Of a stretch of 64,000 bases of DNA, positions 5,710 to 54,581 are shown piece after piece. Source of the DNA: Humulus lupulus (taxonomy: Eukaryota; Streptophyta; Magnoliopsida; Rosales; Cannabaceae); assembly GCF_963169125.1 (NCBI RefSeq), contig NC_084797.1:86955868-87019867 (forward strand). The letters are read 5' to 3'. The notes beneath the pieces were generated by a model. The model was given only the letters and a program-made list of their open reading frames with translations. It searched no databases and was not told the DNA's origin. Numbering within the stretch: the stretch's first letter is position 1; every line of letters starts with the position of its first letter. A program made the position numbers and the translations under genes.

Positions 5710-5778
5710 CCTTATTGAGAGTTAGGGGGCCATAGTAGTGGGAACGATTTTACTGATCCCAGCCCTCCCTCAATATGG
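5710..5778 (+). promoter_or_regulatory. conserved RNA hairpin between ORF1 and gag (element A)
   Basis: The arms CCTTATTGAG (5710-5719) and CTCAATATGG (5769-5778) pair at 9 of 10 positions. They enclose a 49-nt core that starts AGTTAGGGGGCC and ends CCCAGCCCTCC, which can form a second G/C stem. The core is nearly identical in element B (23039-23107, minus) and element G (52973-53040, minus), while the outer arms differ but still pair. It lies between the leader donor and the gag acceptor, so only unspliced RNA would carry it. Confidence 0.7.
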
Positions 5779-5982
5779 TTAACTTTGGAACAAAGATAAG
5801 TTTCGAGCCTGAGAATTAAGTCATATAGGATAATTAGAAACAGACTTAGAAAATAAAGATGGCTTGTTTTTCTAAGTCATAATTAATAGGTTCGAGTTAT
5901 GTTTGTTTTAGAATAAGTTTTGCCTTAGAGCCTATTAGGGTAAGTTCTAACATGTTCTCAACTGTTAGAACTTTTGGTGAAG

Positions 5983-8900
5983 ATGTCGCTCCGAAGATCT
6001 GCACGCACCAACGGAAACGCCTCCAACGCTGTTCCAGCGACCAATGAAGCCCCTCCAGTTCGAATAAGGGGAGTGCGTGCTACTACTAGCCGCAACGCGC
6101 TAGCACCGCCAGCTGACAACACTGCAGAGATCACCAGACTGCGACAACAAGTCGAGGAACTTTTGCAGCAACAACGCCAACAGGCTCAGACTCAGACTAA
6201 GCCTCCACCGCAGCCGCATCCGCAGCAAATGGCCGCAACACCCCAAAAAATTGGTTCATATGGGGGATGGCCAGTGACGAACTACGCGCCGTATCCGGTA
6301 CATCACTTGGAGCCAGTGTATGAGAGATTCCGCAAGCAGCACGCTCCAAACTTCGAAGGGACTACAGACCCCTTTGAGGCAGAGGAGTGGCTAAGGAATG
6401 TGGAGCTGATTCTGACGCACATGAATCTCAGTAATGCAGACCGCATATCCTGCATCTCGTCTTTGCTCAAGAAGGATGCCAGGATATGGTGGGACTTGGT
6501 CCAGCAATCGCATGATGTTGCCACCATGACATGGACTCGATTTGTGGAGCTCTTCCACAAGAAGTACTACAATTCGGCTGTACTCGCTACGAGAGTTGAG
6601 GAGTTTGCTAACTTGAAGCAGGGTACCTTATCGGTGGCAGAGTATGCTCGTCAGTTCGATCGCTTAGCTAAATTCGCATCTGCGATGGTTCCAACCGATT
6701 TTCTGAGGGTAAACAAATTTGTTAGAGGACTTCGACCAAAAATCGAGATGGGGGTTAAGCTAGCAAACCCGGGAAACACTACATATGCCGACGTTCTTGA
6801 GACGGCAATCGAAGTAGAAAGGTTGCAGGCCAATGTAAGTAAAGAAGAAGCCAGTAAGCCTGAACCTAGACAGCAGAGTCAACCTTAGGTCAGTCGGAAC
6901 AACAACCATGATGGCAACAATCAGTCCAGCAACAACGGTAACAGCCAGAAAAGACGGCATCTGGATAACAAGAATTTCGACAGCGATAAGAGGGCACGTA
7001 CGAATAATGGGGGAAATAGGCCGGGCTACGTGGAATACCCGCCATGTGCTAATTGTCAGAAGAAGCATCCTGGAGAATGTCGCGCAAACACCAAGGAATG
7101 TTTTAACTGTGGTCAGGAAGGGCATCGTAAAAGAGATTGTCCTCAGCAGAAGCCATAAGGGAAGAAGGACGAAAAGATGGTTCCTGCTAGGGTTTTTGCC
7201 TTAACCCAAGGAGAGGCTGATGCTAGCAACAAAGTGGTCACAGGTCAGGTTTCTATCCTCAATAACTTATGTTATGTATTATTTGATTCGGGAGCCGCTC
7301 ATTCGTATATCTCGTTAGGAATGATAGAAAAACTAGGCAAACCTTGTGAAAGATTTAGAACTAGGTTTGTAACCGAGTTGCCTTCGGGCAAAGTAGTTCT
7401 ATCATCACGGATAGTACGAGGTGTACCGATCAAGATTGAGGACATAGAACTAGAAGGAGACCTGATAGAACTGGTGATCAAGGACTTCAATGTAATACTA
7501 GGCATGGATTGGCTAGCACGGCATGGCGCAACCATTGACTGTAAACGCAAGAAGGTGATGTTCGAGACAAGCTTCAGGATTACGCACCCCGTTAGTATCA
7601 TCTCTCAAAGCTCAGAGAATGATGGAGAAAGGATGTCAAGCATTCTTAGCCAGCATCACGAATGTGGAAAGGGAGACACCACTTAAGGTTGGAGATGACC
7701 GTGTTATACAAGAATTTCCAGAGGTATTTCCCGATGACTTGCCAGGATTGCCGCCAACTCGAGAAACAAACTTCACGATAGAATTAGTTCCAGGCACCGA
7801 GCCTATCTCTAAGGCACCATACCGGATGGCACCTACAGAACTCAAGGAGTTAAAGACGCAGCTACAAGAACTCCTAGACTTGGGTTTTATTTGGCCAAGC
7901 CATTCACCATGGGGAGCTCCGGTACTATTCATGAAGAAGAAGGACGGAAGTATGCGAATGTGTATAGACTATCGTGAGCTGAACAAAGTAACGATTAAGA
8001 ACAAGTACCCGTTACCTCGGATCGACGATTTGTTTGATCAACTCTGAGGCGCGACTGTATTTTCAAAGATTGATTTACGGTTCGGGTATCATCAGATCAA
8101 GGTAAAGGGAGAAGATATTCCTAAGACAACCTTTAGGACTCGTTATGGACATTACGAGTTCTTGGTTATGTCCTTTGGTCTTACTAACGCACCAGCCGTG
8201 TTTATGGACTTAATGAATAGGGTCTTCAAGGATTACCTAGATAAATTTGTCGTTGTGTTCATCGATGACATTTTGATATACTCCAAGGATGAAGTAGAGC
8301 ACGAGGAACATTTGAGGCTGATTTTGACGCGATTGAAGGAGCATCAACTCTACGCAAAGTTCAAGAAATGCAAGTTTTGGATTTCGCAAGTGGCGTTCCT
8401 CGGGCACATTATATCGAAAGACGGAGTTGCAATAGACCCATCAAAGGTAGAGGCCGTGTAGGATTGGCCCAAACCAAAGAACGCATCCGAAGTAAGAAGC
8501 TTTCTAGGGTTAGCAGGCTATTATAGGAAGTTTGTAGAGGGCTTTTCTAAGATAGCCACTCCACTCACCAACCTGACTCGGAAACAACAAAAATTTAACT
8601 GGAATGATAAGTGTTAAGAAAACTTCCAGTTGCTTAAGGATAAGCTTTGCTCAACACCAGTACTCAGTGTACCGACACCCAACGATAAGTTCGTGGTCTA
8701 CTGCGATGCATCGAAACAAGGATTGGGTTGCGTACTAATGCAAAATGACAAGGTGATAGCCTACGCCTCACGACAATTGAAGGAGTACGAGCAGCGCTAT
8801 CCAACTCACGATATGGAGTTGGTAGCGGTGGTCTTTGCGTTAAAAATCTGGCGCCATTATCTTTACAGAGAACGGTGCGAGATTTATACGAACCACAAGA

Positions 8901-10570
8901 GTTTAAAGTACTCCTTTACTCAAAAGGAGCTCAACATGAGGCAGCGCAGGTGGTTGGAGTTAGTAAAGGATTACGACTGCGAAATCCTATACCACCCAGG
9001 AAAGGCAAACGTAGTTGCCGATGCGCTTAGTAGAAAAAACTATGAAAATTTAGCAACTTTATCCGGAATAGAGAAGCCGCTACAGCAGGAGCTGATCAAT
9101 GCCAGAATAGAAGTAGTTGTAGGCAAGCTGGCTAACTTATCTATCTAATCGAATCTGCTAGAGGACATACGGATTGGTCAGAGACATGATGACACACTAG
9201 CAGCACATATGGATGCATTCAGAGAAGGCAAGACTACAGATTTCTCAATATTTAGCCAAGGTATATTGAGATATAAGGATAGGGTATGCGTGCCAAATGA
9301 TCAAAGTATTAAGAAGACAATTCTGGAAGAAGCGCACAGTACCCCGTACTCAGTTCACCCAGGGTCTACCAAGATGACTCATGACATCAAGGCAATCTAT
9401 TGGTGGCCAGGGATGAAAAATGACATAGCAGAATTCGTGTCCAAATGTCTTGTATGCCAACATTAGCGGCCTGCAGGTTTATTGCAACCGCTTAGCGTAC
9501 CAGAATGGAAGTGGGACGATATAGCTATGGACTTCGTGACGGGTTTGCCAAGGACGAATAAGCAGCATGATTCCGCTTGGATAGTAATAGATAGACTAAC
9601 CAAGTCGGCTCATTTCCTGCCTGTTAGAACTTCATACACGGCAGACCAATATGCAGACATTTACATCCAAGAGATAGTACGGTTGCATGGAATCCCCAAG
9701 ACAATAGTGTCAAATAGAGGATCGGTGTTTACATCGAGATTTTGGGGAAGTTTACAACAAGCTATGGGTACTAAGTTAAGTCTTAGTACAGCTTTTCATC
9801 CTCAGACAGATGGGCAGTCCGAACGCACGATTCAGATTTTAGAGGATATGCTACGTGTGTGTGTATTTGATTTCAGAGGATCATGGAATAAGTACTTGCC
9901 GCCGATCGAGTTCTCGTACAACAACAGCTACCAGTCAACGATCGGGATGGCACCTTATGAGTTGTTATATGGAAGAAGGTGCCGATCACCGTTGCACTGG
10001 GATGAGGTAGGAGAAAGGCAGCTTCTAGGGCCCGAAGCTGTTAGACAAGCTCAAGAAGCAGTAGCACTTATTAGACAGCGTATGCTTACTGCTCAAAGCC
10101 GTCAGAAAAGCTATGCGGATGCCAAGCGACGCGATGTGGAATTCCAAATTGGAGATCAAGTGTTCCTTAAGATATCTCCTATGAAAGGTGTCAAGCGGTT
10201 TGGGAAGAAAGGCAAGCTTAGTCCCCGATTCATAGGTCCTTTTGAGATATTGGACAAAGTGGGACCAGTTGCGTATAGACTAGCCCTACCGCCAGCACTA
10301 GCCGATAGTCACAATGTGTTCCACATCTCGATGCTACGCAAATATGTGTCAGGCCCATCTCACGTCCTCAAGTACGATACAATAGCACTCCAGAAAGACT
10401 TAAGTTACGAGGAACGACCGGTTAGCATCCTAGATAGTGGGATGAAGCAGTTACGGTCCAAGAGCTTTCCTATAGTCAAAGTCCTATGGAGTAATAGTTC
10501 TGAACGGGAGGCAACGTGGGAGTTGGAGGAGGACATGCAAAGCTGGTATCCGGAATTAATTGGTAAGTAA
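5983..10570 (+). pseudogene. gag-pol of element A, inactivated
   Basis: Homologous along its length to intact gag-pol of B: Gag (start MSLRRSAR), CCHC knuckle, protease (FDSGA), RT (FIDD present), RNase H, integrase and a chromodomain-like C terminus. Breaks seen: stops at 6886, 7156, 8045, 8459, 8615, 9146 and 9464; a 32-bp deletion near 7569 that shifts the frame; and a 15-bp in-frame deletion near 9460 after the integrase zinc motif. Two catalytic residues also differ: an RNase H Asp is Asn (YTNH) and the second Asp of the integrase triad is Asn (VSNRG). Domains remain in order, so no large rearrangement occurred. It can only be mobilised in trans, if at all. Confidence 0.93.
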
Positions 10571-10593
10571 ATTTCGAGGATGAAATTCTTTTT

Positions 10594-10606
10594 AGTAGGG
10601 GAGAAT
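10594..10606 (+). promoter_or_regulatory. polypurine tract of element A
   Basis: AGTAGGGGAGAAT lies immediately before the 3' LTR and is the expected plus-strand primer. The same tract precedes the 3' LTR of B. Confidence 0.85.
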
Positions 10607-12519
10607 TGTAGAGTCCAAGAAATTTACTTAGCTAAGTTAGATAGTAGTATTATAGTAATTATAGTATTATCTTTATGACTGTGGATTTTTGGTTCAGACC
10701 GGGATTTATTTGGACACTCATAGTAGTACTTGTAGATTTTCTAAGTTTAACCTACAGTTTAAGAATATTAATTTTAACCTAAGGTTCGATTAATATGGCT
10801 GATATTGAGGATAATATTTATTATACTATAAGGTTTAGATAAGAACCAATAGGATTTTAAGCACATGTTATGTATGGGTGATTAAGGATTAAGTATTTTG
10901 AGGATTAAATTTAATAAGGGTAAAATTTGAATGCTCTAAGGTCAGTCAGCAACTTTGAAAACGTTTGAGGGCTTAGTCAAGGATGTTTACTCAATTTGAA
11001 TTAAGCTAAAAATGTGTAATTTCGTGTTTAAATAATCAGCGTATGCCGATATATCGCAGCTATAGGGGGCGATATATCGCAGCACGTAGATACGGAAAAC
11101 ATGAAACGATGCACGTTTGCCTTGGGCATAATGGTCCAGGCGATATATCGCCTATAGGGGGCGATATATCGCCTCCCTCAGCATATTTTGAATGTTTTCA
11201 AAATCATTTTCCATTCAACCCTTCAACCTCTTGATAAGTCCAGCATCTTTCTTAACGAGTTTTCAGCCTCTGCTGAACGATAATTCAAATTATTTTCACT
11301 TAAACAGCCATTACTTTTATTCAAGTTAAATTAAGATCCTTTCATTCCTAAACTCTATAAATAGGACCTAGTACCCAGCCATTATTCATCTTTTGCTCTA
11401 AGTTCAGAGGCTGCAAGTTGCTAGGTGAGTGTGAGAGTGTAAACACTTGGGTTGGGAATCATAAGCTTGATCATCATAAGGTTATCAAACACTTGGGGAA
11501 GTAATGTTTTATAGTATTTCGGTTCAAGGTTTAAATCGGTCTTATAAGTCTTCAAGGTAACCCAAACTATAGCTCGTTTCTGTACTTTTTCTTTAAAAGT
11601 TCTCATAGTCTTCTACTCAGCCTTCTAACCTTAATCTTTATTTTGGTTAAGAAATCTAAGAACTTGCACATAAGTTTTTGGTAAGTATTTTCTCAATGGT
11701 TTAGTCCTTCCATTCCTTTCATTTCTCTTCTTCACTATACTCACTCTTTTTCAAATGGTTCTTAGGAGTGTTCCAAAGTCCCAACTCTGTCCTCTCATCC
11801 TGGTATTTTGGTAAGGAAAATAGGATAGAATCTATATGTTTTATGTTTTATATGTTATCTTATGTTTTTATGTTATGAAATATGTTATGTTATGTATGTT
11901 TGTAGGCTTGGGCATATGACCCATATGACTAACAAGCCCCAAATGGATTATGGGCATATGACCTGCTTAGCTAGTAGGACCCCACTAATCTAATGGGCAT
12001 ATGACTTGTTTAGTCTATGGGACCCCAAGTAATAATGGGCATTATAGTATGTGTATGATATAAGTGTTATGTATGTTTTTATGTTTCTTATGAAATTTAT
12101 GTATATGAACTATGTGTTAGATTTTCCTTGCTGGGCATTAGGCTCATTCCTTTTTGTTTATATGTGTAGGAAAATAGTCTTAGTGGCGGGAAAGGTTCTT
12201 GGAAGCTTGGAGAATGTGTATTGAGGTCGAATGGATTCAAGAGCCGAGCGTTACGATTCGAGGATGTAGTCTTGTTTTTATGGTTTTACATGTATTTTTC
12301 CGCACTTGTTATGTAATCCTTTTTTATTTTAAATTATGTTTTGTTCTGTTTTTAAAACAATGGGATCCCATATCCTAACCTAAATTTTAGGTAAGTTTAA
12401 ATCTTATTTTTACAAGTTTCTTACTAAGTTATGGTATTTTCACTTGTAAGTTTTATTAAGGATTAGTATGTATAGTTTTCGTTAATGGTCCAAAAGTCTA
12501 GAGTAGTTGGGTCATTACA
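10607..12519 (+). repeat. 3' LTR of element A
   Basis: 1913 bp, TGTAGAGTCC...GGGTCATTACA, followed by ATATA (12520-12524). It keeps the 36 bp missing from the 5' LTR (about 12132-12167), the palindrome module (11043-11177), TATAAATA at 11356 and the GGGCATATGA repeats. Confidence 0.95.
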
Positions 12520-13394: not shown

Positions 13395-13464
13395 CTGGGG
13401 GTTGAGGCACATTCAGAGAGCTACGCCGAAACACCCCCATCTTCCTGACAAGTCCTTCGCAGAA

Positions 13465-16202: not shown

Positions 16203-18112
16203 TGTAATGACCCACTAATCTAGACTAATTGGACCATTATCGAAACTATACATAAAAACTTACATTTTACGAAAATACCATAATTTATTGAGTAACTTGA
16301 AAATAAGAGTTATTTACAAAAAAAACGAATACTAAGAAGGATTTTGGGATCCCATTGTCTTTAAAACAAAATAAGATTTAAAATAAAAGACATTACATAA
16401 TAATGCGGAAAATACATGTAAAACCATAAAAAAACATAAAAGGAGACTACATCCTCGAATCGATAACGCTCGGCCCCTTGACTCCATTCATCATCGATAC
16501 ACATTCTCCAAGCGTCACGAATCTTTCCGCCTCTAAACTTATTTTCCTGCACATAAACAGAAAGGAGTGAGCCTAATGCCCAGTAAGGAAAATCTAACAC
16601 AAAGTCACATACATAATTTCATAAGGAAACATAAAGACTTAACATAATACATATAACATACACTTATTATAATGGCCATTATTACTTGGGGTCCCATAGA
16701 CTAAACAAGCATATGCCCATGGGGTTAATGGGGTCCTACTAGCTAAGTAGGTCATATGCCCATAACCCATTTGGGGTCTTGTTAGTCATATGGGTCATAT
16801 GCCCAAGCCTACATACACATATACATATCATAACACTTTTAATAACATAAACATATAGATAACATATAACATATTAATTCTAGCCTATTTTCCTTACCAA
16901 AGTTACCGGGATAAAATGGACTGAGTTAGGACTTTTGGAACACTCCTAAAACCACAATGAACAAGGGTGAGTCTAAAGAAAGGAGATGAAATGAAAGAGA
17001 ATAGGAAGACTAAACCATTAAACGAAAATATGCTTACCACCACTTAAGTGCTTAAGAACTTGGATTCCCTAACCAAAATAAGAATAAGGTTAGGGGACCG
17101 AGTAGAAGGTTTTGAGAAAAGAAATAACATAGAATACAGAAAGGACTAGAGTTTTGGGTTTACCTCAAAGATTGCAAGATCAATCTAACATCCACCGAAA
17201 TACTATAGCACTCACTTACTTCCCAAGTGTTTGATAAGCTTATGATGTTTAAGCTTATAGTTTTTCCCCAAACCAAGTGTTTACACTCTCTCACTCACTT
17301 AACACTAGCAGCCTCTGAACTTAGAGCAAATGGTGAATAATGGCTGGGTACTAGGTCCTATTTATAGAGTTTGGGAATGAAAATATCTTGATTTTACTTG
17401 AATAAAAATAATGGCTTTTTAGGTGAAAATCATTTGAATAATCGTTCAGCAGAGGCTGAAGACTCGTTCAGAAGATGCTGGACTGTTGAAGGAGTTTGAA
17501 TGGCTGAAGGGAAAAGAATTCAAATGAATTTGAAAACATGCTGGTGGAGGCGATATATCGCCCCCTATAGGCGATATATCGCCTGGACCTTTGTTCCCGA
17601 GGCGACCGTGCATCGATTCGTGTTTTCCGTATCTACGTGCTGCGACATATCGCCCCCTATAGCTGCGATATATCGGCATACGCAGAATATTTAAACACGA
17701 GTATACACATTTTTAGCTAAGTTTGAATGGACTAAACAGCCTTGACTAAGCCCTCAACGTGCTCAAAGCTGCTGACTGACCCTATACATTCAAACTTTTA
17801 CCCTTATTTAATTTAATCCTCAAAAATACTTAATCCTTAATTACCATTCAAAACATGTGCTTAAAATCCTATTGGTTGATGTCTAAACCTTATAATATAC
17901 TAATATAATCCTTAATATCAGTCACATTAATCAAACCTTAGGTTATACTTAATATTCTTAAACTATAGGTTAAACTTAGAAAATCTATAAGTACTACTAT
18001 GAGTGTCCAAATAACTCCCGGTCTGAACCAAAAATCCAAAGTAACAATGATAACACTAAACATACTATAATACTACTAAACAATTAGCTAAGTAAAGTTC
18101 TTGGACTCTACA
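16203..18112 (-). repeat. 3' LTR of element B
   Basis: 1910 bp. On the plus strand it begins TGTAATGACCC and ends TTGGACTCTACA. It has TATAAATA on the minus strand (17359-17366) and the palindrome module with its open frame (17446-17679). Confidence 0.96.
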
Positions 18113-18125
18113 ATTCTCCCCTACT
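18113..18125 (-). promoter_or_regulatory. polypurine tract of element B
   Basis: On the minus strand it reads AGTAGGGGAGAAT directly before the 3' LTR, the same as in element A. Confidence 0.85.
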
Positions 18126-18148
18126 AAAAAGAATTTCGTCCTCGAAAT

Positions 18149-21100
18149 TTACTTACCAAATAACTCCGGATACCGGCTCTGCATGTCCTCTTCCAACTCC
18201 CACGTTGCCTCGCGTTCAGAACTATTGCTCCATAGGACTTTAACTATAGGAAAGCTCTTGGACCGTAACTGCTTCATCCCCCTATCTAGGATGCTAACCG
18301 GTCGTTCCTCGTAACTTAAGTCTTTCTGGAGTGCTATGGTATCGTACTTGAGGACGTGAGATGGGTCTGACACATACTTGCGTAACATCGAGATGTGGAA
18401 GACGTTGTGACTATCGGCTAGTGCTGGCGGTAGGGCTAGTCTATACGCAACTGGTCCCACTTTGTCCAATATCCCAAAAGGACCTAAGAATCGGGGACTG
18501 AGCTTGCCTTTCTTCCCGAACCGCTTGACACCCTTCATAGGAGATATCTTCAGGAAGACTTGATCTCCAACTTGGAACTCCACATCGCGTCGCTTGGTAT
18601 CCGCATAGCTCTTCTGTCGGCTTTGAGCAGCAAGCATACGCTGTCTAATAAGCGTTACTGCTTCTTGAGCTTGCCTAACAGCTTCGGGCCCTAGAAGCTG
18701 CCTTTCTCCTACCTCGTCCCAGTGCAACGGTGATCGGCACCTTCTTCCATATAGCAACTCATAAGGTGCCATCTCGATTGTTGACTGGTAGCTGTTATTG
18801 TACGAGAACTCGATCAGCGGTAAGTACTTGTTCCACGATCCTCCAAAGTCAAGTACACTTGCGCGTAGCATATCCTCTAAAATCTGAATCGTACGCTCGG
18901 ACTGCCCATCTGTCTGAGGATGGAAAGCTGTACTAAGACTTAACTTAGTACCCATGGCTTGCTGTAAGCTTCTCCAAAATCTTGACGTAAACACTGATCC
19001 TCTATCTGATACTATCGTCTTGGGGATTCCATGCAATCGTACAATCTCTTGGATGTAGATGTCTGCATATTGGTCTGCCGTATAAGAAGTCTTAACAGGC
19101 AGAAAATGAGCTGACTTGGTTAGTCTATCTATGACTATCCAAGCAGAATCATGCTGCTTATTTGTCTTTGGCAGACCCGTCACGAAGTCCATGGCTATAT
19201 CGTCCCACTTCCACTCCGGTATGCTAAGCGGTTGCAATAATCCTGCAGGCCGCTGATGCTCCGCCTTCACTTGTTGGCATACCAGACACTTAGATACATA
19301 CTCCGCTATGTCCTTCTTCATCCCTGGCCACCAATAGACTGCCTTGATGTCATGAGTCATCTTGGTAGACCCTGGATGAACCGAGTATGGGGTGCTGTGC
19401 GCTTCTTCTAGGATCGTCTTCTTAATACTTTGATCGCCTGGCACGCATACCCGATCCTTATATCTCAATAAACCTTGACTGGATATTGAGAAATCTGTAG
19501 TCTTGCCTTCTCTGACTGCATCCATGTGCGTTGATAGCGAATCATCATGTCTCTGACCATTCTGTATGTCTTCTAGCAGATTCGATTGGATAGACAAGTT
19601 AGCCAGCTTGCCTACCACCACTTCTATTCCAGCACTAATAAGCTCCTGTTGCAGTGGCTTTTCTATTCCGGATAAGGCTGCTAAGTTCCCATAACTTTTT
19701 CGGCTAAGTGCATCGGCAACTACGTTTGCCTTCCCCGGGTGGTATAGGATTTCGCAGTCGTAATCCTTTACTAATTCCAACCACCGGCGCTGCCTCATGT
19801 TAAGCTCCTTCTGAGTAAAGAAGTATTTTAAACTTTTGTGGTCCGTATAAATCTCGCACCGTTCTCCGTAAAGATAATGGCGCCAGATTTTTAACGCAAA
19901 GACCACCGCTGCCAACTCCATATCGTGAGTTGGATAGCGTTGTTCATACTCCTTTAACTGACGTGACGCGTAGGCTATCACCTTGTCATTTTGCATCAGT
20001 ACGCATCCCAATCCTAACTTTGATGCATCACAGTAGACAACGAACTTGTCGTTGGGTGTTGGGACACTAAGTACTGGTGTTGAGCAAAGCTTATCCTTAA
20101 GCAACTGGAAGCTTTCCTCACACTTATCATTCCAGTTAAACTTTTGTTGCTTCCGGGTCAGGTTGGTGAGTGGAGTGGCTATTTTAGAAAAGCCCTCTAC
20201 AAACTTTCTATAGTAACCTGCTAGCCCTAAGAAGCTTCTTACTTCCGACGCGTTCTTTGGTCTAGGCCAATCTTTCACGGCCTCTACCTTCGATGGATCT
20301 ACTGCAACTCCGTCTTTCGATATGATGTGCCCGAGGAACGCCACTTGTGAGAGCCAAAACTCGCATTTCTTGAACTTCGCGTAGAGTTGGTGCTCCTTCA
20401 ATCGCGTCAAAATTATCCTCAAGTGTTCCTCGTGCTCCACTTCATCCTTGGAGTAAATTAAAATGTCGTCGATGAACACAACGACGAATTTATCCAAGTA
20501 GTCCTTGAAGACCCTATTCATTAAGTCCATAAACGCGGCTGGCACGTTAGTAAGACCAAAAGACATAACCAAGAACTCGTAATGTCCATAACGAGTCCTA
20601 AAGGCTGTCTTAGGAATATCTTCCCCCTTTACCTTGAGCTGATGATACCCGGACCGTAAATCGATCTTAGAGAATACAGTCGCGCCTCGGAGTTGATCAA
20701 ACAAATCATCAATCCGAGGTAGCGGGTATTTGTTCTTAATCGTTACTTTATTCAGCTCACGGTAGTCTATGCACATGCGCATACTTCCGTCCTTCTTTTT
20801 CACGAATAGTACCGGAGCTCCCCATGGTGAATGGCTTGGCCTAATGAAACCCAAGTCTAGGAGTTCTTGTAGCTGCGTCTTTAACTCCTTGAGTTCCGTA
20901 GGTGCCATCCGGTATGGTGCCTTAGAGATAGGCTCGGTGCCCGGTACTAATTCTATCGTGAAGTCTATTTCTCTAGTTGGCGGCAATCCTGGCAAGTCAT
21001 CGGGGAAAACTTCTGGAAATTCTTGTATGACTCGAACATCTCCAACTTTGAGTGATATCTCCTTCTCCACATTTGTGATGTTGGCTAAGAATGCTTGACA

Positions 21101-22777
21101 TCCTTTCTCCATCATTCTCTGAGCTTTGAGAGATGATACTAACGGTGTGCGTAGTCCTGAAGCTTGTCCCATGAAGCACAGTTTCTGGCCGTCAGGAGTA
21201 TCGAATGTCACCTTCTTGCGTCTGCAGTCGATCGTTGCGCCATGCCGTGCTAGCCAATCCATGCCTAGTATGACGTCGAAGTCTTTGATCACCAGCTCTA
21301 TCAGGTCTCCTTCTAGTTCCTTGTCCTCAATCTTGATTGGTACGCCTCGTACAATTCGTGATGATAGAACTACTTTGCCCGAAGGCAACTCGGTTGCAAA
21401 CCTAGTTCTAAATCTTTCACTAGGTTTGTCTAGTTTATCTATCATTCCTAACGAAATATACGAATGGGTGGCTCCCGAATCAAATAATACATTGAGGATG
21501 GAAACCTGACCTGTGACCACCTTGTTGCTAGCATCCGCCTCTCCTTGGGTTAAAGCAAAAACCCGAGCAGGAACCATCTTTTCGTCCTTCTTTCCTTCCG
21601 GCTTTTGCTGAGGACAGTCTCTTTTACGATGCCCTTCTTGACCACAGTTGAAACACTCCTTGGTGTTGGCACGGCATTCTCCGGGGTGCTTCTTCTGACA
21701 TTTGGCACATGGCGGGTATTCCACGTAGCCCGACCTATTTCCCCCATTACTTGGTCGTGCCCTTTTATTGTTGTCGGCTTGCTTGTTGTCAGGATGCCTT
21801 CTCTTCTGTCCGTTACCGTTGTTGTTGGACTGACTGTTGCTGGACTGATTGTTGTTCCGACTGGCCTGAGGTTGGCTCTGCTGCCTAGGTTCCGGCTTGC
21901 TGGCTTCTTCTTTGCTCACGTTGGCTTGCAACCTTTCTACTTCAATTGCCGTCTCAAGAACGTCGGCATATGAAGTGTTTCCCGGGTTTGCTAGTTTAAC
22001 CCCCATCTCGATCTTCGGGCGAAGTCCTCTAACAAACTTGTTCACCCTTAGATAGTCGGTTGGAACCAACTCTGCTGCGAACTTCGCTAAGCGATCGAAC
22101 TGACGAGCATATTCCGCCACTGTTAAATTCCCTTGCTTCAGATTGGTGAACTCCTCAACTCTCGTAGCAAGCACTGCTGAATTGTAGTACTTCTTGTGGA
22201 AGAGCTCCACAAATCGGGTCCACGTCATAGTGGCAGCATCGTGGGATTGCTGGACCAAATCCCACCATATCCTGGCATCTTTCTTGAGTAAAGATGAGAC
22301 GCAGGATATGCGGTCTGCATTACTAAGGTTCATGTGAGCTAGGATCGGCTCCACATTCCTTAGCCATTCTTCTGCTTCAAAGGGGTCCGTAGTCCCTTCG
22401 AAGTTCGGAGCGTGCTGCTTGCGGAACCTCTCGTACACTGGCTCCATGTGCTGAACAGGATAAGGAGCGTAGTTCGTCATAGGCCATCCCCCATACGGAC
22501 CAACTTGTTGGGGTGCTGGGGCCATTGGCTGTGGCTGCGGCTGCGGCTGTGGCGGAGGCTGAGGCTGAGATTGAGCCTGTTGGCGTTGTTGCTGCAGAAG
22601 TTCCTCGACTTGCTGTCGTAGTCTGGCAATCTCTGCAGTGTTGTCAGCTGGCTGTGCCGGTGCGTTGCGGCGAGCAGTAACACGTACTCTCCTTCGGCGA
22701 ACGGTAGGGACCGCATTGGTCGCTGGAACATCGTTGGAAGCGTTCCCGTTGGTGCGAGCAGATCTTCGGAGAGACAT
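18149..22777 (-). CDS. gag-pol: Gag-Pol polyprotein of element B (Ty3/gypsy chromovirus), intact
   Basis: 1542 residues in one frame. Gag domain about 115-260 ([18 protein letters not shown]); Q/P-rich linker 60-95; zinc motifs C357-x2-C-x3-H-x3-C and CCHC 375-388; aspartic protease with DSG at 433-435 and ILGMDW at 503; RT about 630-815 with D706 and FIDD 768-771; RNase H with D917, E954, D979 and D1022; integrase with H1127, H1134, C1164, C1167 and the D1197, D1258, E1294 triad (35-residue spacing); GPF at 1432; chromodomain-like tail about 1493-1540 ([14 protein letters not shown]). The encoded proteins form particles, copy RNA and insert cDNA; the tail is expected to guide insertion to heterochromatin. 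One oddity: RT has NVPAAF where relatives have NAPAAF. The start MSLRRSAR agrees with element A. Confidence 0.97.
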
Positions 22778-22789
22778 CGTAGCAGAGTT

Positions 22790-22810
22790 CTAACAGTTAA
22801 AAGAAACATG
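22790..22810 (-). promoter_or_regulatory. candidate splice acceptor before gag (element B)
   Basis: On the minus strand a pyrimidine-rich run TTTCTTTTAACTGTTAG ends at 22790, 12 nt before the gag ATG at 22777. Element A keeps ACTGTTAG at 5961-5968. Joined to the leader donor at 23845 it would place gag next to the cap and remove ORF1. Confidence 0.4.
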
Positions 22811-23038
22811 TTAGAACTTTTTCCTAATAGGCTCTAAGGCAAAAACTTATTCTAAAACAAACATATCTCGGACCTATTTATTATGACTTTTTATGAAAAA
22901 TTATATAGGTCTTTATTTATTATTAGAGTGGGTTTCTATACTTAGAAAAACAAGTCATATTTATTTTCTAAGTGTGTTTCTAATCATCCTATATGACTTA
23001 ATTCTCAGGCTCGAAACTTATCTTTGTTCCAAAGTTAA

Positions 23039-23107
23039 CCATATTGAGGGAGGGCTGGGATCAGTAAAATCGTCCCCACTACTAAGGCCCCCTAACTCTC
23101 AACAAGG
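23039..23107 (-). promoter_or_regulatory. conserved RNA hairpin between ORF1 and gag (element B)
   Basis: Minus-strand arms CCTTGTTGAG and CTCAATATGG pair at 9 of 10 positions including one G-U, around the same G/C-rich core as in A. A change A to G in the left arm relative to A keeps pairing as a wobble. It lies 197 nt after the end of ORF1 and about 260 nt before the gag ATG, as in A. Confidence 0.7.
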
Positions 23108-23303
23108 AAACCAGGTTCATTGATTCGTATCCACCCTCACCGAACTCAGTCATTATTCATTTTATTTAGTATTTATTATGATTGTGAAAAAAAATTTCAA
23201 ACTCACACATGATATTCAAATAGCATGTTTATTCATTTGGAAAACAATTTCACTTATTACAATCATAACATAAAAGTAAATAAAACAAATAAAAACTACT
23301 AAT

Positions 23304-23771
23304 CTAAAAATCGGGATCTTCTACATCCGATCCGTCATCTAACATATCATCATCTTTAGCCTCATAGTCATCATTATCATGAGCATCAAAATGCCCTCTA
23401 GGAAGGTTTGTGAGAATCCTATTCTTTTGCTCCTTGGTGAATTGAAATTCAAATTTTGCGGTGAACCTAACTAAGAGGAAATAGTATCTCATTGCTAATG
23501 GTGATTCATCCTCATCATTCATTTCTTCCCATATTTCTTCTAAGGCTGCTATTACAGGATGGAAATCTTTAAACAACCTAATCACTAATACATATTGTTC
23601 TGTTGATCTTAGCATTATTTGTTTAGCCTCTTGAAGGCCACCTATTGCTTGGTGAAACAAAAGCAACCTTCGTGTAATCCTTTCTAAGGCTCCTACGGTG
23701 TTTCTTGGCTCCCTTATTCTTTTTAAGGCCTTAATGGCTCGGATATCTTGGTAGGTTAAAGCTCCATTCAT
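23304..23771 (-). CDS. ORF1: conserved pre-gag protein of unknown function (element B)
   Basis: 155 codons from the ATG at 23771, the start shared with element A. The frame is open for seven codons further upstream (to 23792), but that region is the predicted intron. It lies 151 nt after the PBS. The basic first half, hydrophobic middle and D/E-rich tail are as in A; 15 of 155 residues differ and no gaps exist. No known domain is recognised. Its presence in an intact, young element together with intact gag-pol argues that it is a working part of this family. Confidence 0.75.
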   Translation of the reverse strand: MNGALTYQDIRAIKALKRIREPRNTVGALERITRRLLLFHQAIGGLQEAKQIMLRSTEQYVLVIRLFKDFHPVIAALEEIWEEMNDEDESPLAMRYYFLLVRFTAKFEFQFTKEQKNRILTNLPRGHFDAHDNDDYEAKDDDMLDDGSDVEDPDF

Positions 23772-23777
23772 TTTTAA

Positions 23778-23845
23778 CTGAAACATAAACACTAAAGTTG
23801 TTAGCTATACACATAGACAAAGTAACTTGTAACTTAAACACTTAC
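23778..23845 (-). other. predicted leader intron upstream of ORF1 (element B)
   Basis: On the minus strand CGCCAA/GTAAGTG opens at 23845 and TTTATGTTTCAG closes at 23778. The intron is 68 nt and ends 6 nt before the ORF1 ATG. Position and borders match element A while the intron interior differs. Confidence 0.5.
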
Positions 23846-23911
23846 TTGGCGGTCCGATTCGGAGCTTTGAGCATATGTATCGAGGAGAACTTCATGCGAA
23901 GGAACCGTTTG

Positions 23912-23922
23912 CTCTGATACCA
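23912..23922 (-). promoter_or_regulatory. primer binding site of element B
   Basis: TGGTATCAGAG on the minus strand, two bases after the 5' LTR end; matches initiator tRNA-Met. Confidence 0.92.
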
Positions 23923-23924
23923 AC

Positions 23925-25834
23925 TGTAATGACCCACTAATCTAGACTAATTGGACCATTATCGAAACTATACATAAAAACTTACATTTTACGAAAATAC
24001 CATAATTTATTGAGTAACTTGAAAATAAGAGTTATTTACAAAAAAAACGAATACTAAGAAGGATTTTGGGATCCCATTGTCTTTAAAACAAAATAAGATT
24101 TAAAATAAAAGACATTACATAATAATGCGGAAAATACATGTAAAACCATAAAAAAACATAAAAGGAGACTACATCCTCGAATCGATAACGCTCGGCCCCT
24201 TGACTCCATTCATCATCGATACACATTCTCCAAGCGTCACGAATCTTTCCGCCTCTAAACTTATTTTCCTGCACATAAACAGAAAGGAGTGAGCCTAATG
24301 CCCAGTAAGGAAAATCTAACACAAAGTCACATACATAATTTCATAAGGAAACATAAAGACTTAACATAATACATATAACATACACTTATTATAATGGCCA
24401 TTATTACTTGGGGTCCCATAGACTAAACAAGCATATGCCCATGGGGTTAATGGGGTCCTACTAGCTAAGTAGGTCATATGCCCATAACCCATTTGGGGTC
24501 TTGTTAGTCATATGGGTCATATGCCCAAGCCTACATACACATATACATATCATAACACTTTTAATAACATAAACATATAGATAACATATAACATATTAAT
24601 TCTAGCCTATTTTCCTTACCAAAGTTACCGGGATAAAATGGACTGAGTTAGGACTTTTGGAACACTCCTAAAACCACAATGAACAAGGGTGAGTCTAAAG
24701 AAAGGAGATGAAATGAAAGAGAATAGGAAGACTAAACCATTAAACGAAAATATGCTTACCACCACTTAAGTGCTTAAGAACTTGGATTCCCTAACCAAAA
24801 TAAGAATAAGGTTAGGGGACCGAGTAGAAGGTTTTGAGAAAAGAAATAACATAGAATACAGAAAGGACTAGAGTTTTGGGTTTACCTCAAAGATTGCAAG
24901 ATCAATCTAACATCCACCGAAATACTATAGCACTCACTTACTTCCCAAGTGTTTGATAAGCTTATGATGTTTAAGCTTATAGTTTTTCCCCAAACCAAGT
25001 GTTTACACTCTCTCACTCACTTAACACTAGCAGCCTCTGAACTTAGAGCAAATGGTGAATAATGGCTGGGTACTAGGTCCTATTTATAGAGTTTGGGAAT
25101 GAAAATATCTTGATTTTACTTGAATAAAAATAATGGCTTTTTAGGTGAAAATCATTTGAATAATCGTTCAGCAGAGGCTGAAGACTCGTTCAGAAGATGC
25201 TGGACTGTTGAAGGAGTTTGAATGGCTGAAGGGAAAAGAATTCAAATGAATTTGAAAACATGCTGGTGGAGGCGATATATCGCCCCCTATAGGCGATATA
25301 TCGCCTGGACCTTTGTTCCCGAGGCGACCGTGCATCGATTCGTGTTTTCCGTATCTACGTGCTGCGACATATCGCCCCCTATAGCTGCGATATATCGGCA
25401 TACGCAGAATATTTAAACACGAGTTTACACATTTTTAGCTAAGTTTGAATGGACTAAACAGCCTTGACTAAGCCCTCAACGTGCTCAAAGCTACTGACTG
25501 ACCCTATACATTCAAACTTTTACCCTTATTTAATTTAATCCTCAAAAATACTTAATCCTTAATTACCATTCAAAACATGTGCTTAAAATCCTATTGGTTG
25601 ATGTCTAAACCTTATAATATACTAATATAATCCTTAATATCAGTCACATTAATCAAACCTTAGGTTATACTTAATATTCTTAAACTATAGGTTAAACTTA
25701 GAAAATCTATAAGTACTACTATGAGTGTCCAAATAACTCCCGGTCTGAACCAAAAATCCAAAGTAACAATGATAACACTAAACATACTATAATACTACTA
25801 AACAATTAGCTAAGTAAAGTTCTTGGACTCTACA
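23925..25834 (-). repeat. 5' LTR of element B
   Basis: 1910 bp, almost identical to 16203-18112. TATAAATA on the minus strand at 25081-25088 is the likely promoter of the genomic RNA. The palindrome module is at about 25269-25400. GTTGG follows at 25835-25839. Confidence 0.96.
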
Positions 25835-45041: not shown

Positions 45042-45053
45042 GCTCTGATACCA
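45042..45053 (-). promoter_or_regulatory. primer binding site of element D
   Basis: TGGTATCAGAGC on the minus strand, three bases from the LTR at 45057; full match to initiator tRNA-Met. Confidence 0.88.
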
Positions 45054-47760: not shown

Positions 47761-48330
47761 GAAAAAGTATTTCTTATTTATGGGTATTTTTACAATATAG
47801 AAACATGGTTTATAGACAGTATTTCATCTTAGACCTTCTTTAATACAAAATATATACAATATAGAGGAATTCCAATAGACTAGAAAATTGAAAAAATTAT
47901 GGGAAACGTTTGAGACTTGGTAATGTTTATTTCCTAGCTGTCAACAATATGTTATTAGATGCTAGGTAGTGACTAGATTATTGACCTTTTCTTTTTTGTT
48001 CTTCTTTTGTGTTATAAGATTGATCTAACTAAGCGTTATCACATACCTAGTTGTTTCATGTGTAGGTAAGTGCAAGGAAAAATTGGGAAAATGAGCTCTG
48101 GAGGCTCCTCGTAGGATGTACATGTGGCATGACCATGGGGAGAAATGTCATTTTGAGTTTAACACTCTTTTTGGTCACATCAAGACTTAAAATGTTGATT
48201 GTAAATATTTTAAGTGTGATCACATATTTCTTTTAAAAGTTTTTTTTTATATGGATTTCTGAGACATTACATTTATTGAAATTTTTTTATATTTTGCAAT
48301 GTTTTTGGTTGGTATTTTTGGGTCGTTACA
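47760..48330 (+). repeat. 3' portion of the 5' LTR of element F
   Basis: AT-rich sequence ending TTTTTGGGTCGTTACA, directly followed by a primer-site-like TGGTATCATAA. The GTCGTTACA end is like that of the chromoviral LTRs here. The left border could not be located. Confidence 0.5.
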
Positions 48331-48332
48331 AG

Positions 48333-48343
48333 TGGTATCATAA
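48333..48343 (+). promoter_or_regulatory. degenerate primer binding site of element F
   Basis: TGGTATCATAA differs from TGGTATCAGAG at two positions. A strong donor (CGTT/GTAAGTATT) follows at 48410, 77 nt downstream of the primer-site start, the same distance as in A (77 nt) and B (77 nt). Confidence 0.6.
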
Positions 48344-48487
48344 CTCGAGTTAAGCCAATTCTGTGGAAAAACCCACAAGTATATTTTTCAAGATAGACCA
48401 ACACTCGTTGTAAGTATTATCTTTAAATTTGTTTTAGTAGTTTATTTCTCTTTTACTCACCTAAATTGCTCTAAATTTAAGGTTGAG

Positions 48488-49032
48488 ATGGCAGAGCAAC
48501 CAGAAGTAATACACCCTATCATAGTCAACCCTCCAATAGATTATACCTTAGATTAGAGGATCACTATTTATGAGTCATTTCATAGGATTGGGTCGTATCA
48601 GTTTGTTAGAGTAGATCCTGATTCGTTTGACGTATGGGCTTGGACATACGACATAGATCATATCTTTGGTGTGGTCAATACTCGCCCTATGTTCCGGGTG
48701 AGATTGGCCAACACTCGTTTTCGAGGCAAAGTTTTCAATGGTTTCATGTCTAGAATATGGTACCATTCACCGTCTCATGGGTCGAGTTCCAAATTTCCAT
48801 TACATTCGCCTACGAACTTGTTAATGGTCGATTGAGGTGGTATTTGGACTATCCGAGGGATTTGGGAGCACACAAACCATGGTTAGCAGAGGAAGCAGTC
48901 CGGAGGGCAGCTCGAGAGAAGGCGCCAGCAGCAGCACGTTACGGGGAACTGATGGATTAGGATCCAAAGGTAGAGAACCCAAAGGAGGACACAGAGGAGG
49001 ACCTGGAGGAAGGCCCAGACGAGGAGACTTGA
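48488..49032 (+). pseudogene. pre-gag ORF of element F, broken
   Basis: ATG 48488 lies 155 nt after the start of the primer site, as for ORF1 of A (152) and B (151). The frame reads MAEQPEVIHP..., then VDPDSFDVWAWTYDIDH and NTRPMFRVRLANTRF. There is a stop at 48554, a frameshift at about 48760-48790 and a stop at 48958. The second half reads SITFAYELVNGRLRWYLDYP and ends in an acidic tail (EDTEEDLEEGPDEE). About 180 codons in all. No sequence match to ORF1 of A or B is evident beyond place, size and acidic end. It may be an unrelated or highly diverged pre-gag ORF. Confidence 0.5.
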
Positions 49033-49439
49033 CTCCTATATAGATAACATATACTAAGTATATAGTTAGACTTGTGTACTCTTGGATAGTAACCACAATA
49101 AGTGTATATTTTGGATTAGTGGTATATTGAGTTGAACAGGAGATACTGAACCCATATACTAGGGCTAAGTTTTGTAAACCCTTACGATAACTAAGCTCAA
49201 CCTAACCTATAACCTAGCATTCATTTTGTAATTCTCATAGGATGACCGAGCCTAAACTTAAAACTTGTATAATTTTGACAATATTATGCAGTAAAGTTGC
49301 TATTTTCTGTTCTAAATTATTGATTGTTGTGTTGTGTGTGATGTGTTTGGTTTACTTAATTAATATATTAACTAATTGTTTATTGTGAAACTCAACGGGA
49401 GCAAGACAGGAATAGACAGGTGGATGCTGAAGCACGCCA
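49033..49439 (+). other. element F leader and start of gag
   Basis: 49033-49380 is AT-rich leader with no gene. From about 49395 a frame reads REQDRNRQVDAEARQ and continues after the solo LTR as AVVPIAARPKPM (51293 onward). This shows that gag of F ran across the insertion site. Confidence 0.5.
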
Positions 49440-51287
49440 TGTTGGGAAAACTTATACATGATATTTATTTATTTTCATGTAGATCTAATATTAAAAAAGT
49501 TAATATGTGACAACATAGGACATGTTTCTAAAAATGAATTCAAAGAGAAATAATGATAAGAATACTTACATTATACGTAGCGGAATGAATGAGTCATTCC
49601 TTCAGTTTCTCTAGCCCTTGTATCCTTTCTGTCGCAGAGTATTACCAAGAAACTGAACGGATCTTCAATTTTCTTCACAGCCTTCCAAAGTATCCTTAGG
49701 ATCACCTAGAATAGAGTGGGAAATTTTCATAACATGAGATAGATACAAAGAGAAGAAGAGAAAAGAACAATAAGGCTTAGAAAATGACTTATGTTTAGAG
49801 AGAATCTAAAACCTATCCGAAAACCAATGTCTATGATCTTCTTTCAACTCTCACATAACATTCCTTTTATAGACTCAATTAGGTCATTTATTTAATTAAA
49901 AAATCATTAAAATAATAGCCAATAATCAGCCATAGGTCGAAATTATCATGGGCTTTAGGTTCATAAAATTTCTAATATGATTATAAGCCCGTTGGACTTA
50001 AAATCAAGGCATGTATTATTTTCTATTTATTTAATTAATTAAATCATTATTCAAATCATTTATCAAATTAATTATTTATAATTTGAACATTGATTTAAAA
50101 TTATTTATTAATTTAGATATCAATTTATCTTAATTAATAAATGTGCTCTAATTTCTCTTTTCTTCTCAAAATTACATAACTTTGTGAAACTATCATAAAA
50201 TTGAGTTGCTAAACTTTGATAATTCTAATTGATAATTAAATCAATTAATTGAGACTATCTAGATGATTTATCCAAGGTACAGTGGGGACCATGGACCTAT
50301 GAAATCAAACTCCAATAATTTATCATAAATCTAACAAATAAATTTACTAACTTATTAATTCCTCGTGATTCCACTAAAGACTCAGAATTGCATTATTGAA
50401 TTCATAGAATCCTCTATAAGCAATATAGATACGTTATTAATTATCCATTGTTACAACCATAATTGTCAATCAATCCTCTATAGATGGTCTACAATGAGTT
50501 CGGACTAAAATACTGTTTTACCCCTCATTGTATTTTATCCTTAAAACACTTAGTTCCTTGTAAATGATATTTCAGTAAACTAATATTAATTACTGAAATG
50601 AGATCTATGTCATTTAGAACCTTTAACCAAACTAAAATGAAACCATCGTTTCACTTCTTCATCAGAAGCTATATATGTTCATATCTATGATTAGCACTTT
50701 CACTCAATTATACTACTGAGTTCCCAAGATGTAAGTATGGGCTAGTCCGTCGGGTAAGCTGATAACGAACAAGTCAAAGAACTCAAATAATACAATCAGT
50801 TAAAATACTAACCACTAAGAATTGAGATTGAATTGACTTATGGTCAACTATATGATATGACTAGAACAGATAATAATGGTATGTTTACTTATCCTATCTA
50901 CTGTCAATATTGGTCTAGTCTGATGTAACAATTACATCTGATCTAATCTACTTTGCTAATGTTCTGGAAAGAACATAACACTGTGATGTGTAAGTAGAAC
51001 TTATCATAGATTGGCAAGTCGGTGTAAATCATGTGCACTAACTAATCTTAGGACTAACTTATTTTGATCATATAATCATATTTATATTCCACTATGATTA
51101 GGTCACTATAAATATGATTAGCTATATGCTCGAGATTTTATAGAAGTTTCTATTAAACAAATAATAATGAAAATAAAACATGTGAGCAAAGTGATTGACC
51201 AAGTAAAAAAATAATTTCGATTCTTTTATTTATAATAAATGAGATTACAAAGAAATTTGGTTTTAATTAGGGCATAAAACCCCAACA
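49440..51287. mobile_element. solo LTR of family G in element F gag
   Basis: 1848 bp, TGTTGGG...CCCAACA, flanked by CGCCA on both sides (49435-49439 and 51288-51292). By comparison with 54582-56428, which has an adjoining primer site, the orientation is minus. The host reading frame joins cleanly across it. Confidence 0.88.
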
Positions 51288-51292
51288 CGCCA

Positions 51293-52491
51293 AGCAGTAG
51301 TACCAATAGCAGCTCGACCAAAACCTATGTAAAAGAGATTCTATAAGTAGAACCCAATGATCTTTGCAAGAGCTATTGATCCTATGGTGGACGAGGAATG
51401 GATTAGCATACTGGAATGAATCTTCTACTTCATCTAAATCTATGAACGAGAGAATTTTTTATGCGCTATATATATGTTGAGGAAGGAGGCCTGCATCTGG
51501 TGGAACATAGAAAGAAAAATCACAATGTAGTTGAGAAGGAGTGGTATGAGATTTTGGTTCTATTTAACTCCAAGTAGTATAGTCGGACTGTGGTAAACCA
51601 CAAGGTTGTTGAATTCTCCAACATGAAACAAGGAATGATGAATGTGAAAGAGTATGTTAGTAAGTATAACCAGATGTCAAGATTCATGCTAGATTTGATC
51701 AGTATCGAGACAAGCAAAATTCAAAGATTCATGAAGGGCTTAAGGGGGGACATTGTACAATTTGTGGATACTAAGAGAACGGGCCTGGAAACCAACACGG
51801 AAGTAGTAGAGAGAGGTATCTTCCAGGATTCATGGATAGTATACGAAAGAAAGGAACCCTAGAAAATCGAGGAGATGAGGTATAGTCCCAACAACAAGGG
51901 ACAGTTTCAGGCCAACAAAATTTTACTAAGGGGAAAGTTAACTCCCGTGTTTAACCAAAATTCTAGAAGATCAAACACTCAAGGTTGCCAAAGATTTAAC
52001 AATGGTGGAAGTAACAAGAGGAAGGCAGGACCTCCCAGTCGGGGGTCAAATTTTAATAAAGAACCTAGGTGTCTCATTAAAAACTAGCATGTCTGTACTA
52101 AATACAATCGAAGCCATTCGGGCGATTACAAATCTAAAGCTTGTTAAACATGTTGTGGCTACAGATACATTGCTCAGGAATGTACAAGTTCAGGACCTAA
52201 TGAATGGGTTGTTGAATGAGTACCTGGATAACTTCTTTATCATATTTATTGACATCGTCCTTATATATTCGAGGAGCAAGGAGGAGCATGCAACATACTT
52301 GGAACTTGTACTGCAACAACTACAAGAAAAGAAGTTGGAAGTGAAGTTCTTGAAGTGTGAATTTTGGCTGGAAAAAGTAAGTTTTCTTGGACACGTGTTG
52401 TGAGGGGACGAAATTTTAGTAATCGCGCCATGATTGAAGTTGTGAATTAGTGGAAACCTTCGAAAAATGACCACGATGTCTGGAGTTTCTA
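51293..52491 (+). pseudogene. gag-RT fragment of element F, copy 1
   Basis: Gag capsid-type region (AIDPMVDEEWISIL, HKVVEFSNMKQGMMNVKEYV, RFMKGLRGDIVQFVD), degenerate zinc motifs (52060-52170), then a direct jump into RT (LLNEYLDNFFIIFID...KCEFWLEKVSFLGHVL, read in parts). Protease and the front of RT are deleted between about 52180 and 52195. The RT catalytic pair FIDD is FIDI. Many stops are present. Copy 2 at 56434 has the same deletion, so the deletion is older than the duplication. Homology to copy 2 ends at about 52491. Confidence 0.85.
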
Positions 52492-54581
52492 GAGATAGAC
52501 CCACGATTTCGATAATCAATAGATTTAATTTTAGTAGCCACCGTAGGGGTGAGTCTAGTAGAATCTGACCTATAATTATGTGTCTTTTCGAAATATAACC
52601 TTGTCAAAATAACTAATAAACACATTCCATAGGGGACGAATCAAAGTGTCTCAAGGCCCCACTATGATATTGACGTTGTTAAACCAACGGTGGAGATCGA
52701 ATATAATTCTTAAAATAACCTCATTATAAAATAAAAAATACTATGTTTATTATTTATTTTTAGAAAATTATTGACTATGGTTCTCCAAGAAATTGAGAAA
52801 ATTAAATTTTTAAAACCAAAGTCCTATAATTTCCTATTAATTCGAAAGTGTCACATTGAAACAAATGCAATTAATTTAGAATTAATTTGTTTCTATTCAA
52901 TATTTAGGTTTACTAATATAATGAACCTATACAATTAACTCCAACTCAGGTAAATGGGCCTTAACAATTGGGCTTGTATGGAGGAGGGTTGGGTTCAGTA
53001 TGTCGTTCCCACTACTAAGGCCCCCAAACTTCCATACAAGGTCCAAAAGACAGGAACTAAACCTTCATTTTATTAATTGTTATTAATTGGTTAGGCACAC
53101 TATAGACATGCAAAGTAAATAGGCCTTCACAAGTGGAATCACATACAAGAGAGGAATTTAAAATTTACATTTTCTAATGGGCCCAAATAAAACCTATCAT
53201 TTTTTGAATATTTTATATGGCAAAAAATCCATATATCTAGCAAACATATGGGTCACTATATGCATCTAAGCCCAATTGCAAAAATACCACATATAGTGCA
53301 AACAGACATGTTATAATTGGATGGGCCTAATCACGTTACTATATGAGCAATTCTATGAATTTATGCAAAAATACCACAATTTATTTCATTTGCAAAAAGA
53401 CGAAGATTAATTTTCTACAATTTATCAAATATTCGAATTAATTAAATTTTTACAAAAAATAAGTCAATTTAAGTTAAAATTAATCAACAATTGACAATTG
53501 TTAATTTAAATTTCATTTATCAACAATTAACCAAAGTTAATTTAAATCCCATTTATTAAAAAATATTTTATTAATTGGTTGAAAAAATGATATTTTTCAA
53601 AATTTAATCAATTTTAAACTTTAAAATCAATATCTTAACTAGTTTTCAAAAAATATCTTGTGTTGCTAGAACAATAAGCAAATATTTTAACCATTTAAAA
53701 AAATATATAAAATATTAATTGTTATAACAACCCTAAAATATCTCAAAAGAGTTAACCAAATTCAAATATCCATGAAAATATATAACTAACAAATTTCAAA
53801 ATATTTAAATATTAAAAACTATAGAATAAAAAGATATTTATATTTTCAAATAAAGATTTAATAGAAATAAAAAGTATTTAAAAGAGAATATCTTAAATAT
53901 ATGATGTCTTAATTCTAATATTTTAATATATTAAAATATTTAAAATTAAGTTGTTAGTCTATTTTTAAATTTTAATTTGAATCTTTGTAAAAATATATAA
54001 TTATTTAAATCTCAACCCAAAAAAATATCTTATTTTAAAAATTATTTTTAAATGATAAAACAAATCTCATATTCTTTGCTTTGATTATAAATAATCAATT
54101 TTCACATTTTAATTTCTTAAATTTAAAAAAATAAAAAAGAAATTTATGACGTGTCGGGTACTGTTCACGGTGCCTGGTGTGCATGCAGGTGCGCGCGTGT
54201 GGGTTTGCATTGGCTGCCGAGGGACGAGCGCAAGGAATGCTAGGTGACACACATAGGTGCACGCGCTGGTGTGCGCGGGTGCGTGCAGACAATGGCAGCC
54301 AGGCCAAAAAAATTATGGATAATTTTTTGTGCAATTTTTCAAACCAAAACCATTTTCTAATTAATTTTTAACATGTTTTACACAAAATAAAGACTATATA
54401 AAAATTAATGACATAGAAAACACAACAAAATAACCTAAAAATTGCTAATAATCACATAAAATCAATATACTTCATAAAAAACATGAAAATCCATCTAATT
54501 ATTCCAACACATCAAATAATCTAATTTTTTTTAACATGCTCATGCATGAAAATAAAGATTACCAAAGGCTCTGAGGCCAAT
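52492..54581 (-). mobile_element. internal leader part of a family G element
   Basis: In minus orientation this runs from the primer site at 54566-54580 (TTGGCCTCAGAGCC, 10 of 12 matches to the tRNA-Met site) through about 1.5 kb of very AT-rich leader to the conserved hairpin (52973-53040) and then about 480 bp to the breakpoint with copy 1. No gag or pol is recognised, so superfamily is open. A GC-rich island with (GTGCGCGC)-like sequence lies at 54150-54310; the short frames in it look fortuitous. Confidence 0.6.
52973..53040 (-). promoter_or_regulatory. conserved RNA hairpin in the family G leader
   Basis: Arms CTTGTATGGA and TCCATACAAG pair perfectly over 10 bp around a 48-nt core (AGTTTGGGGGCC...ACCCAACCCTCC on the minus strand). 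About 42 of 48 core positions agree with the core of elements A and B, whereas six of the ten arm pairs differ from A by double, compensating changes. Confidence 0.75.

Follow-up and report, generated by a model that had tools for sequence, protein, structure and literature searches.

Why should LTR retrotransposons of different kinds carry the same RNA hairpin in their leaders? The question arises from a stretch of 64,000 nucleotides of the hop genome, beginning at C7:86,955,868 and referred to here as the window, in which an initial annotation had noticed three segments of 68-69 nt, A, B and G, each on the sense strand of its element. All three are present at the positions and on the strands where they had been reported (Table 1). 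In what follows we ask how widely the hairpin occurs, whether its arms have been selected to pair, which elements carry it, and what it might do for them.

Occurrence of the hairpin core

The 23-nt core of the hairpin is found three times in the window when up to 3 mismatches are allowed, each match being exact, against a mean of 0.00 in 100 shuffles; matches of the 15-mer TAGTAGTGGGNACGA with 3 mismatches stand at chance level there (4 found, 3.88 expected). The evidence on the hairpin comes from one genome, that of the window, and in its 2,478,267,529 bases the exact core occurs 4,796 times (2,412 and 2,384 on the two strands), the reversed pattern 0 times on either strand. In 20 spaced 10-kb stretches of C7, 2 copies of the core were found within 5 substitutions, neither of them exact: L006 is A-like and L015 is G-like. 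Judged roughly from this sample of two, all copies of the core may number several times the exact ones.

Forty-three separate places with the hairpin were read, a small and partly selected share of the exact copies. The set is not random, as 18 of the places are all the matches of an unusual-base pattern and 20 were picked from the first 100 places listed on contig 1. By their flanks, 35 places are A-type, 3 are G-type and 5 belong to a third family, T. The 3' arm has been lost in L051 and L052, and the 5' arm in L056. A pyrimidine before AGTT was considered as a mark of new families and discarded, the 18 genome copies that have it being 17 changed A-type copies and 1 G-like copy. Over 282,002 bases (the window, the 20 sampled stretches, L042, L043 and L062), a covariance model found, up to E 5, no match beyond seven copies; since all seven are among its 18 input rows, this shows only that further near copies are absent there.

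The initial annotation could not place the hairpin in a known RNA family, and Rfam 15 supports this, with 0 matches in the window at the gathering cut-off and nothing but noise in lax searches with A and G at E up to 5. Core-pattern scans of viral contigs gave 0 matches, as did one such scan of prokaryotic contigs, two collections that say little about plants; a single prokaryotic pattern match, in an actinobacterium, has neither GGGGGCC nor CCCA and was taken as chance. Searches of a limited literature found neither the core sequence, in either sense, nor, in titles and abstracts on leader motifs, such a hairpin. RNA elements in the leaders of retroelements are familiar as such; an example with covarying arms that spans both superfamilies is new, as far as these searches tell.

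Table 1. Features of the hairpin-bearing elements in the window
Feature	Position	Strand	Remarks
Hairpin A	5710..5778	+	Ty3/gypsy leader; 204 nt upstream of gag ATG
Hairpin B	23039..23107	-	same family as A; 261 nt upstream of gag ATG
Hairpin G	52973..53040	-	leader of Ty1/copia-type family; family assigned via L063 and L015
Element A	3008..12519	+	LTRs about 3008-4881 and 10607-12519; ATATA flanks on both sides; from self-BLAST, ends read; gag and integrase domains
Element B	16203..25834	-	LTRs 25834-23925 and 18112-16203; CCAAC flanks on both sides
B gag-pol open frame	18149-22789	-	inside element B
Primer site TGGTATCAGAG	A 4884..4894; B 23922	A +; B -	
Donor-like GTAAGT	A 4961..4966; B 23845	A +; B -	motif only
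Acceptor-like TTAG before A gag	5965..5968	+	motif only; A gag ATG at 5983
ORF0, 155 aa	A 5036..5503; B 23771-23304	A +; B -	5' of hairpin
G leader stretch	52486..54581	-	as far as kept in window; PBS-like ATTGGCCTCAGAGCC starts at 54581
Probable G 5' LTR	54582..57035	-	TGTTGGGA...TCCCAACA; second copy 49440-51893

Pairing and covariation of the arms

The arms of A (CCTTATTGAG/CTCAATATGG) form 9 of 10 possible pairs, as do those of B, where one of the pairs is G-U, and the arms of G form all 10. If the arms are exchanged, so that the 5' arm of A faces the 3' arm of G or the 5' arm of G the 3' arm of A, each combination has 5/10 pairs. Between A and G, the arms differ at 13 of 20 positions and the core at 7 of 49 columns, and our count agrees with the earlier one that six of the ten arm pairs have changed on both sides with pairing kept. 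When unconstrained drift to 13/20 differences was simulated, 4 of 20,000 runs retained pairing of at least 9/10 in both arms. Pairing counts and simulation together support the view that a selected RNA structure resides in these leaders upstream of gag, the arm covariation resting on few families: compensatory change is seen in the six double changes from A to G, and the arms of T, which are rearranged, form 6/10 pairs unless a bulge is admitted. One T sequence folds into a stem of 7 bp and 5 bp, and another (T42) folds quite differently. The arm pairs were tallied by script; the covariance model held only 14 inner pairs, because MAFFT had placed a gap in the 3' arm.

Folding z-scores against shuffles are -2.38 for A and -2.40 for G; for B the value is -0.35, a fold no better than that of shuffled sequence. 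Within the core, as read from the sequence, GGGGG can pair with CCCTCC and, further inside, AGUA with UACU or UGGG with CCCA, and these last two pairings could coexist as a pseudoknot. The inner core bases hardly vary, so that covariation is uninformative on their pairing. In four A-type leaders compared in four chosen pairs, the core window has the best mean identity, 0.94, the other windows ranging from 0.51 to 0.88; for the whole hairpin, identity in pairs with the A-type copy of L063 is only 0.80, owing to a gap in the 5' arm of that copy.

Elements that carry the hairpin

A and B are members of one Ty3/gypsy family, as is evident from the gag, RVP, RVT_1, RNase H and integrase domains of B and from the gag and SH3_Tf2-1 domains of A. 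By this architecture they may be Tekay chromoviruses. Their leaders share the order PBS, donor-like GTAAGT, acceptor-like CAG, ORF0, hairpin, acceptor-like site and gag ATG. The conserved ORF0 lies between PBS and gag, and its C-terminal tail is acidic. It has no Pfam match above cut-off and 28 relatives in the protein collection at E <=0.001 (52-97% identity over 48-100% of length); in viral contigs, 0 of 14 pattern matches to it were confirmed. ORF0 thus belongs to a class already described, that of the additional 5' ORFs of Tekay chromoviruses (PMC11728184). These occupy the same place as the ORF0 of A and B, the one in sunflower being about 400 aa long as against 155 aa; the paper deals with proteins, and its main text does not contain the words 'leader', 'hairpin' or 'spliced' (PMC11728184).

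Between the leaders of A and G, the hairpin is the sole significant match (63 nt, E 3.7e-10; next E 0.081), and the same is true between those of B and G (67 nt, E 1.1e-10; next 0.32). The earlier statement that G has no visible relation to A and B elsewhere is thereby confirmed, and it gains in force from the superfamily to which G is assigned. In the copy of G in the window, the leader ends at about 52486, and the copia-type gag of sibling copies is missing. In L063, a G-type copy, the same leader is followed by an ATG, some 770 nt downstream of the hairpin, which opens a gag of copia type according to its relatives: its own gag pieces score below the Pfam cut-off or have no score, and its first 83 aa, used as a query, find three proteins, of which P0029 (83% identity over 98%) scores for PF14223, the copia-type gag family, below cut-off, and P0030 (81%) and P0031 (72%), both over 52%, pass it. 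L015 is a second locus in which a G leader runs into the same gag region, here with broken frames. With a copia-type gag after the G leader in both siblings, recognised via those relatives, the G family is of Ty1/copia type, and the hairpin is thus common to Ty1/copia-type and Ty3/gypsy elements. A reading in which the internal part of G ends at the start of a gypsy-like gag was dropped, because in L063 and L015 a gag of copia type follows downstream.

The 3-kb repeats of G, at 49440-52492 and 54582-57628, are 91% alike and have a weak antisense similarity (58-62%) to the gag and reverse transcriptase of T; they overrun the TGTTGGGA...TCCCAACA ends by about 600 bp on either side, which leaves the limits of the G LTR uncertain. 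On the reverse strand of L063, at 4256-5462, a diverged A-type leader (77-78% identical to A and B) adjoins the copia-type copy, with the ORF0 frame present and a hairpin that is one base longer before GGGGG.

The T family comprises copies with GGGTACGA (L042, L043) and is again Ty3/gypsy, the copy L043 having Retrotrans_gag, RVT_1 and Integrase_H2C2 domains. In L043 the core begins 529 nt after the PBS, and the leader contains what by eye appears to be a decayed and shortened ORF0 (about 2101-2187). Around the hairpin, the leaders of T and G align over 214-295 positions at 75-78% identity, far more than is the case for A and G. This suggests, as the simplest reading of the alignments, the transfer of a hairpin-bearing leader segment between one copia and one gypsy element. 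It also touches on an objection raised in the initial annotation, that G might merely be a recent transfer of the whole A/B leader followed by random drift: the likeness of T and G makes the transfer of segments probable, but the differences between the A arms and the G arms are covarying ones, not those of random drift.

Position of the hairpin in the leader

In the Ty3/gypsy leaders (A/B and T) as in the Ty1/copia-type leaders (G), the hairpin lies between PBS and gag. Its distance from gag is 174 nt in T, 204 in A, 261 in B and about 770 nt in L063. A has 35 ATGs before gag and the T copy L043 has 14; between hairpin and gag there are 3 in A and 9 in L063. Acceptor-like sites, as motifs only, precede gag in A, T and L063, and the T leader is without a clear donor motif. 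With the splice sites taken as motifs only, the hairpin may mark unspliced RNA. A spliced RNA made for Gag alone is reported for the retrotransposon BARE (PMC3735527).

Possible functions of the hairpin

What could such an element contribute to retrotransposons of both superfamilies? Our tentative answer, to which we would give a probability of about 0.4, is that several families of plant LTR retrotransposons, Ty1/copia and Ty3/gypsy alike, conserve in their long 5' leaders a structured RNA element that is bound by a host protein and acts on unspliced RNA. Going by the splice-like motifs, the hairpin would be located inside a leader intron whose acceptor abuts gag, and only unspliced, full-length RNA would retain it. 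A host protein would then bind the fixed loop, and the hairpin would let the unspliced RNA escape splicing or be exported, by analogy with the constitutive transport element of retroviruses. Recombination between leaders could hand the module on, a possibility suggested by the G-like segment in T. With a host protein as its partner, the module could be of use to elements whose Gag proteins are unrelated, and the Gag of A, B and T (Ty3 type) and that of the G family (copia type) indeed fall into different Pfam families; as the Gag proteins of the two superfamilies are unrelated, a signal for a host factor is favoured over Gag-specific packaging.

The closest competitor, and a serious one, is a packaging or dimerisation signal, a hairpin confined to full-length RNA that, by binding Gag or by pairing between two copies, would sort genomic RNA into virus-like particles; particles might then be common to families in which the signal is the same. 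Its position in the leader and its likely absence from spliced RNA would suit such a role, and BARE2, which is unable to make Gag, is reported to be packaged and to retain packaging and dimerisation signals (PMC3735527). Still, we regard this as unlikely, since one signal recognised by Gag proteins as different as the Ty3 and copia types would be unexpected, although cross-packaging may occur, and since no long palindromic loop is apparent on reading the sequence. Rather unlikely, too, yet to be taken seriously, is a translation element that helps ribosomes to reach gag past ORF0 and the upstream AUGs, by internal entry, shunt or re-initiation. The crowding of the leaders with ATGs and the location of the hairpin between ORF0 and gag would be explained, and a host factor would be common to both superfamilies; however, ATGs are left between hairpin and gag, the distance to gag varies, from 174 nt in T to about 770 nt in L063, and splicing, if the intron is real, would strip the hairpin from the gag mRNA.

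We find it very hard to see in the hairpin an RNA stability element, such as an exoribonuclease-resistant fold. A compact pseudoknot beside the fixed core, possible on our reading, would be in line with it, but Rfam offers no match, and a site far inside the leader is unusual for stability elements, which counts against this explanation. Least credible of all, and barely worth entertaining, is a small mobile or captured sequence, similar to the inverted repeat of a MITE, that landed in several leaders and has no function as RNA. The positions shared by T and G around the hairpin do indicate that segments move between leaders; inverted-repeat elements, however, keep their ends while the middle drifts, whereas here the ends vary and pair and the middle is fixed. 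Moreover, the 43 places read, a limited selection as described above, resolve by their flanks into three leader families with 0 stand-alone copies.

Returning to a host-factor signal on unspliced RNA, a more far-reaching version of it would be a plant counterpart of the retroviral transport element: a transferable module that a plant host protein recognises, that moves between Ty1/copia and Ty3/gypsy elements when their leaders recombine, and that decides what becomes of their unspliced RNA. This we put forward as a doubtful proposal.

Relation to known elements

The constitutive transport elements of simple retroviruses are hairpins present only in unspliced RNA and are thought to act via a host protein; we know of no plant example. 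They differ in sequence and size from the hop hairpin, for which a role in export is proposed. In plant LTR retrotransposons, only a few cis-acting RNA elements have been described. An element maintained by covariation and found in both superfamilies would indicate that their life cycles have a host-dependent step in common and would offer a handle on how full-length RNA is distinguished from spliced RNA, and its sharing would show that Ty1/copia and Ty3/gypsy elements trade regulatory RNA modules.

The packaging and dimerisation signals reported for BARE (PMC3735527) resemble the hairpin in their leader position and perhaps in their restriction to full-length RNA. Unlike the packaging signals of LTR retroelements, however, the hairpin is common to Ty1/copia and Ty3/gypsy families with unrelated Gag proteins. 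The motifs of Sireviruses (PMC2829016) provide a further parallel, as they include an inverted repeat that is conserved in plant copia elements outside their coding regions. They flank the PPT/3'LTR junction or sit at the gag/pol boundary, whereas the hairpin sits in the leader, and the account of these motifs describes no sharing with Ty3/gypsy elements of the kind seen for the hairpin (PMC2829016).

Neighbouring and rearranged copies

The window also holds a solo LTR of the A/B family at 13528-15435, with CATTA flanks on both sides. The pol region of a neighbouring Ty3-like element (60045-63998, minus strand) is about 72% identical to that of B; the leader of this element, short at about 385 nt and contained in L062, has neither hairpin nor ORF0. 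In L042, at about 2515-2560, a 44-nt LTR end (95% identical to window positions 45099-45057) seems to be joined directly to the leader without a PBS; the joint lies about 100 nt before the hairpin, an apparent deletion that has spared it.
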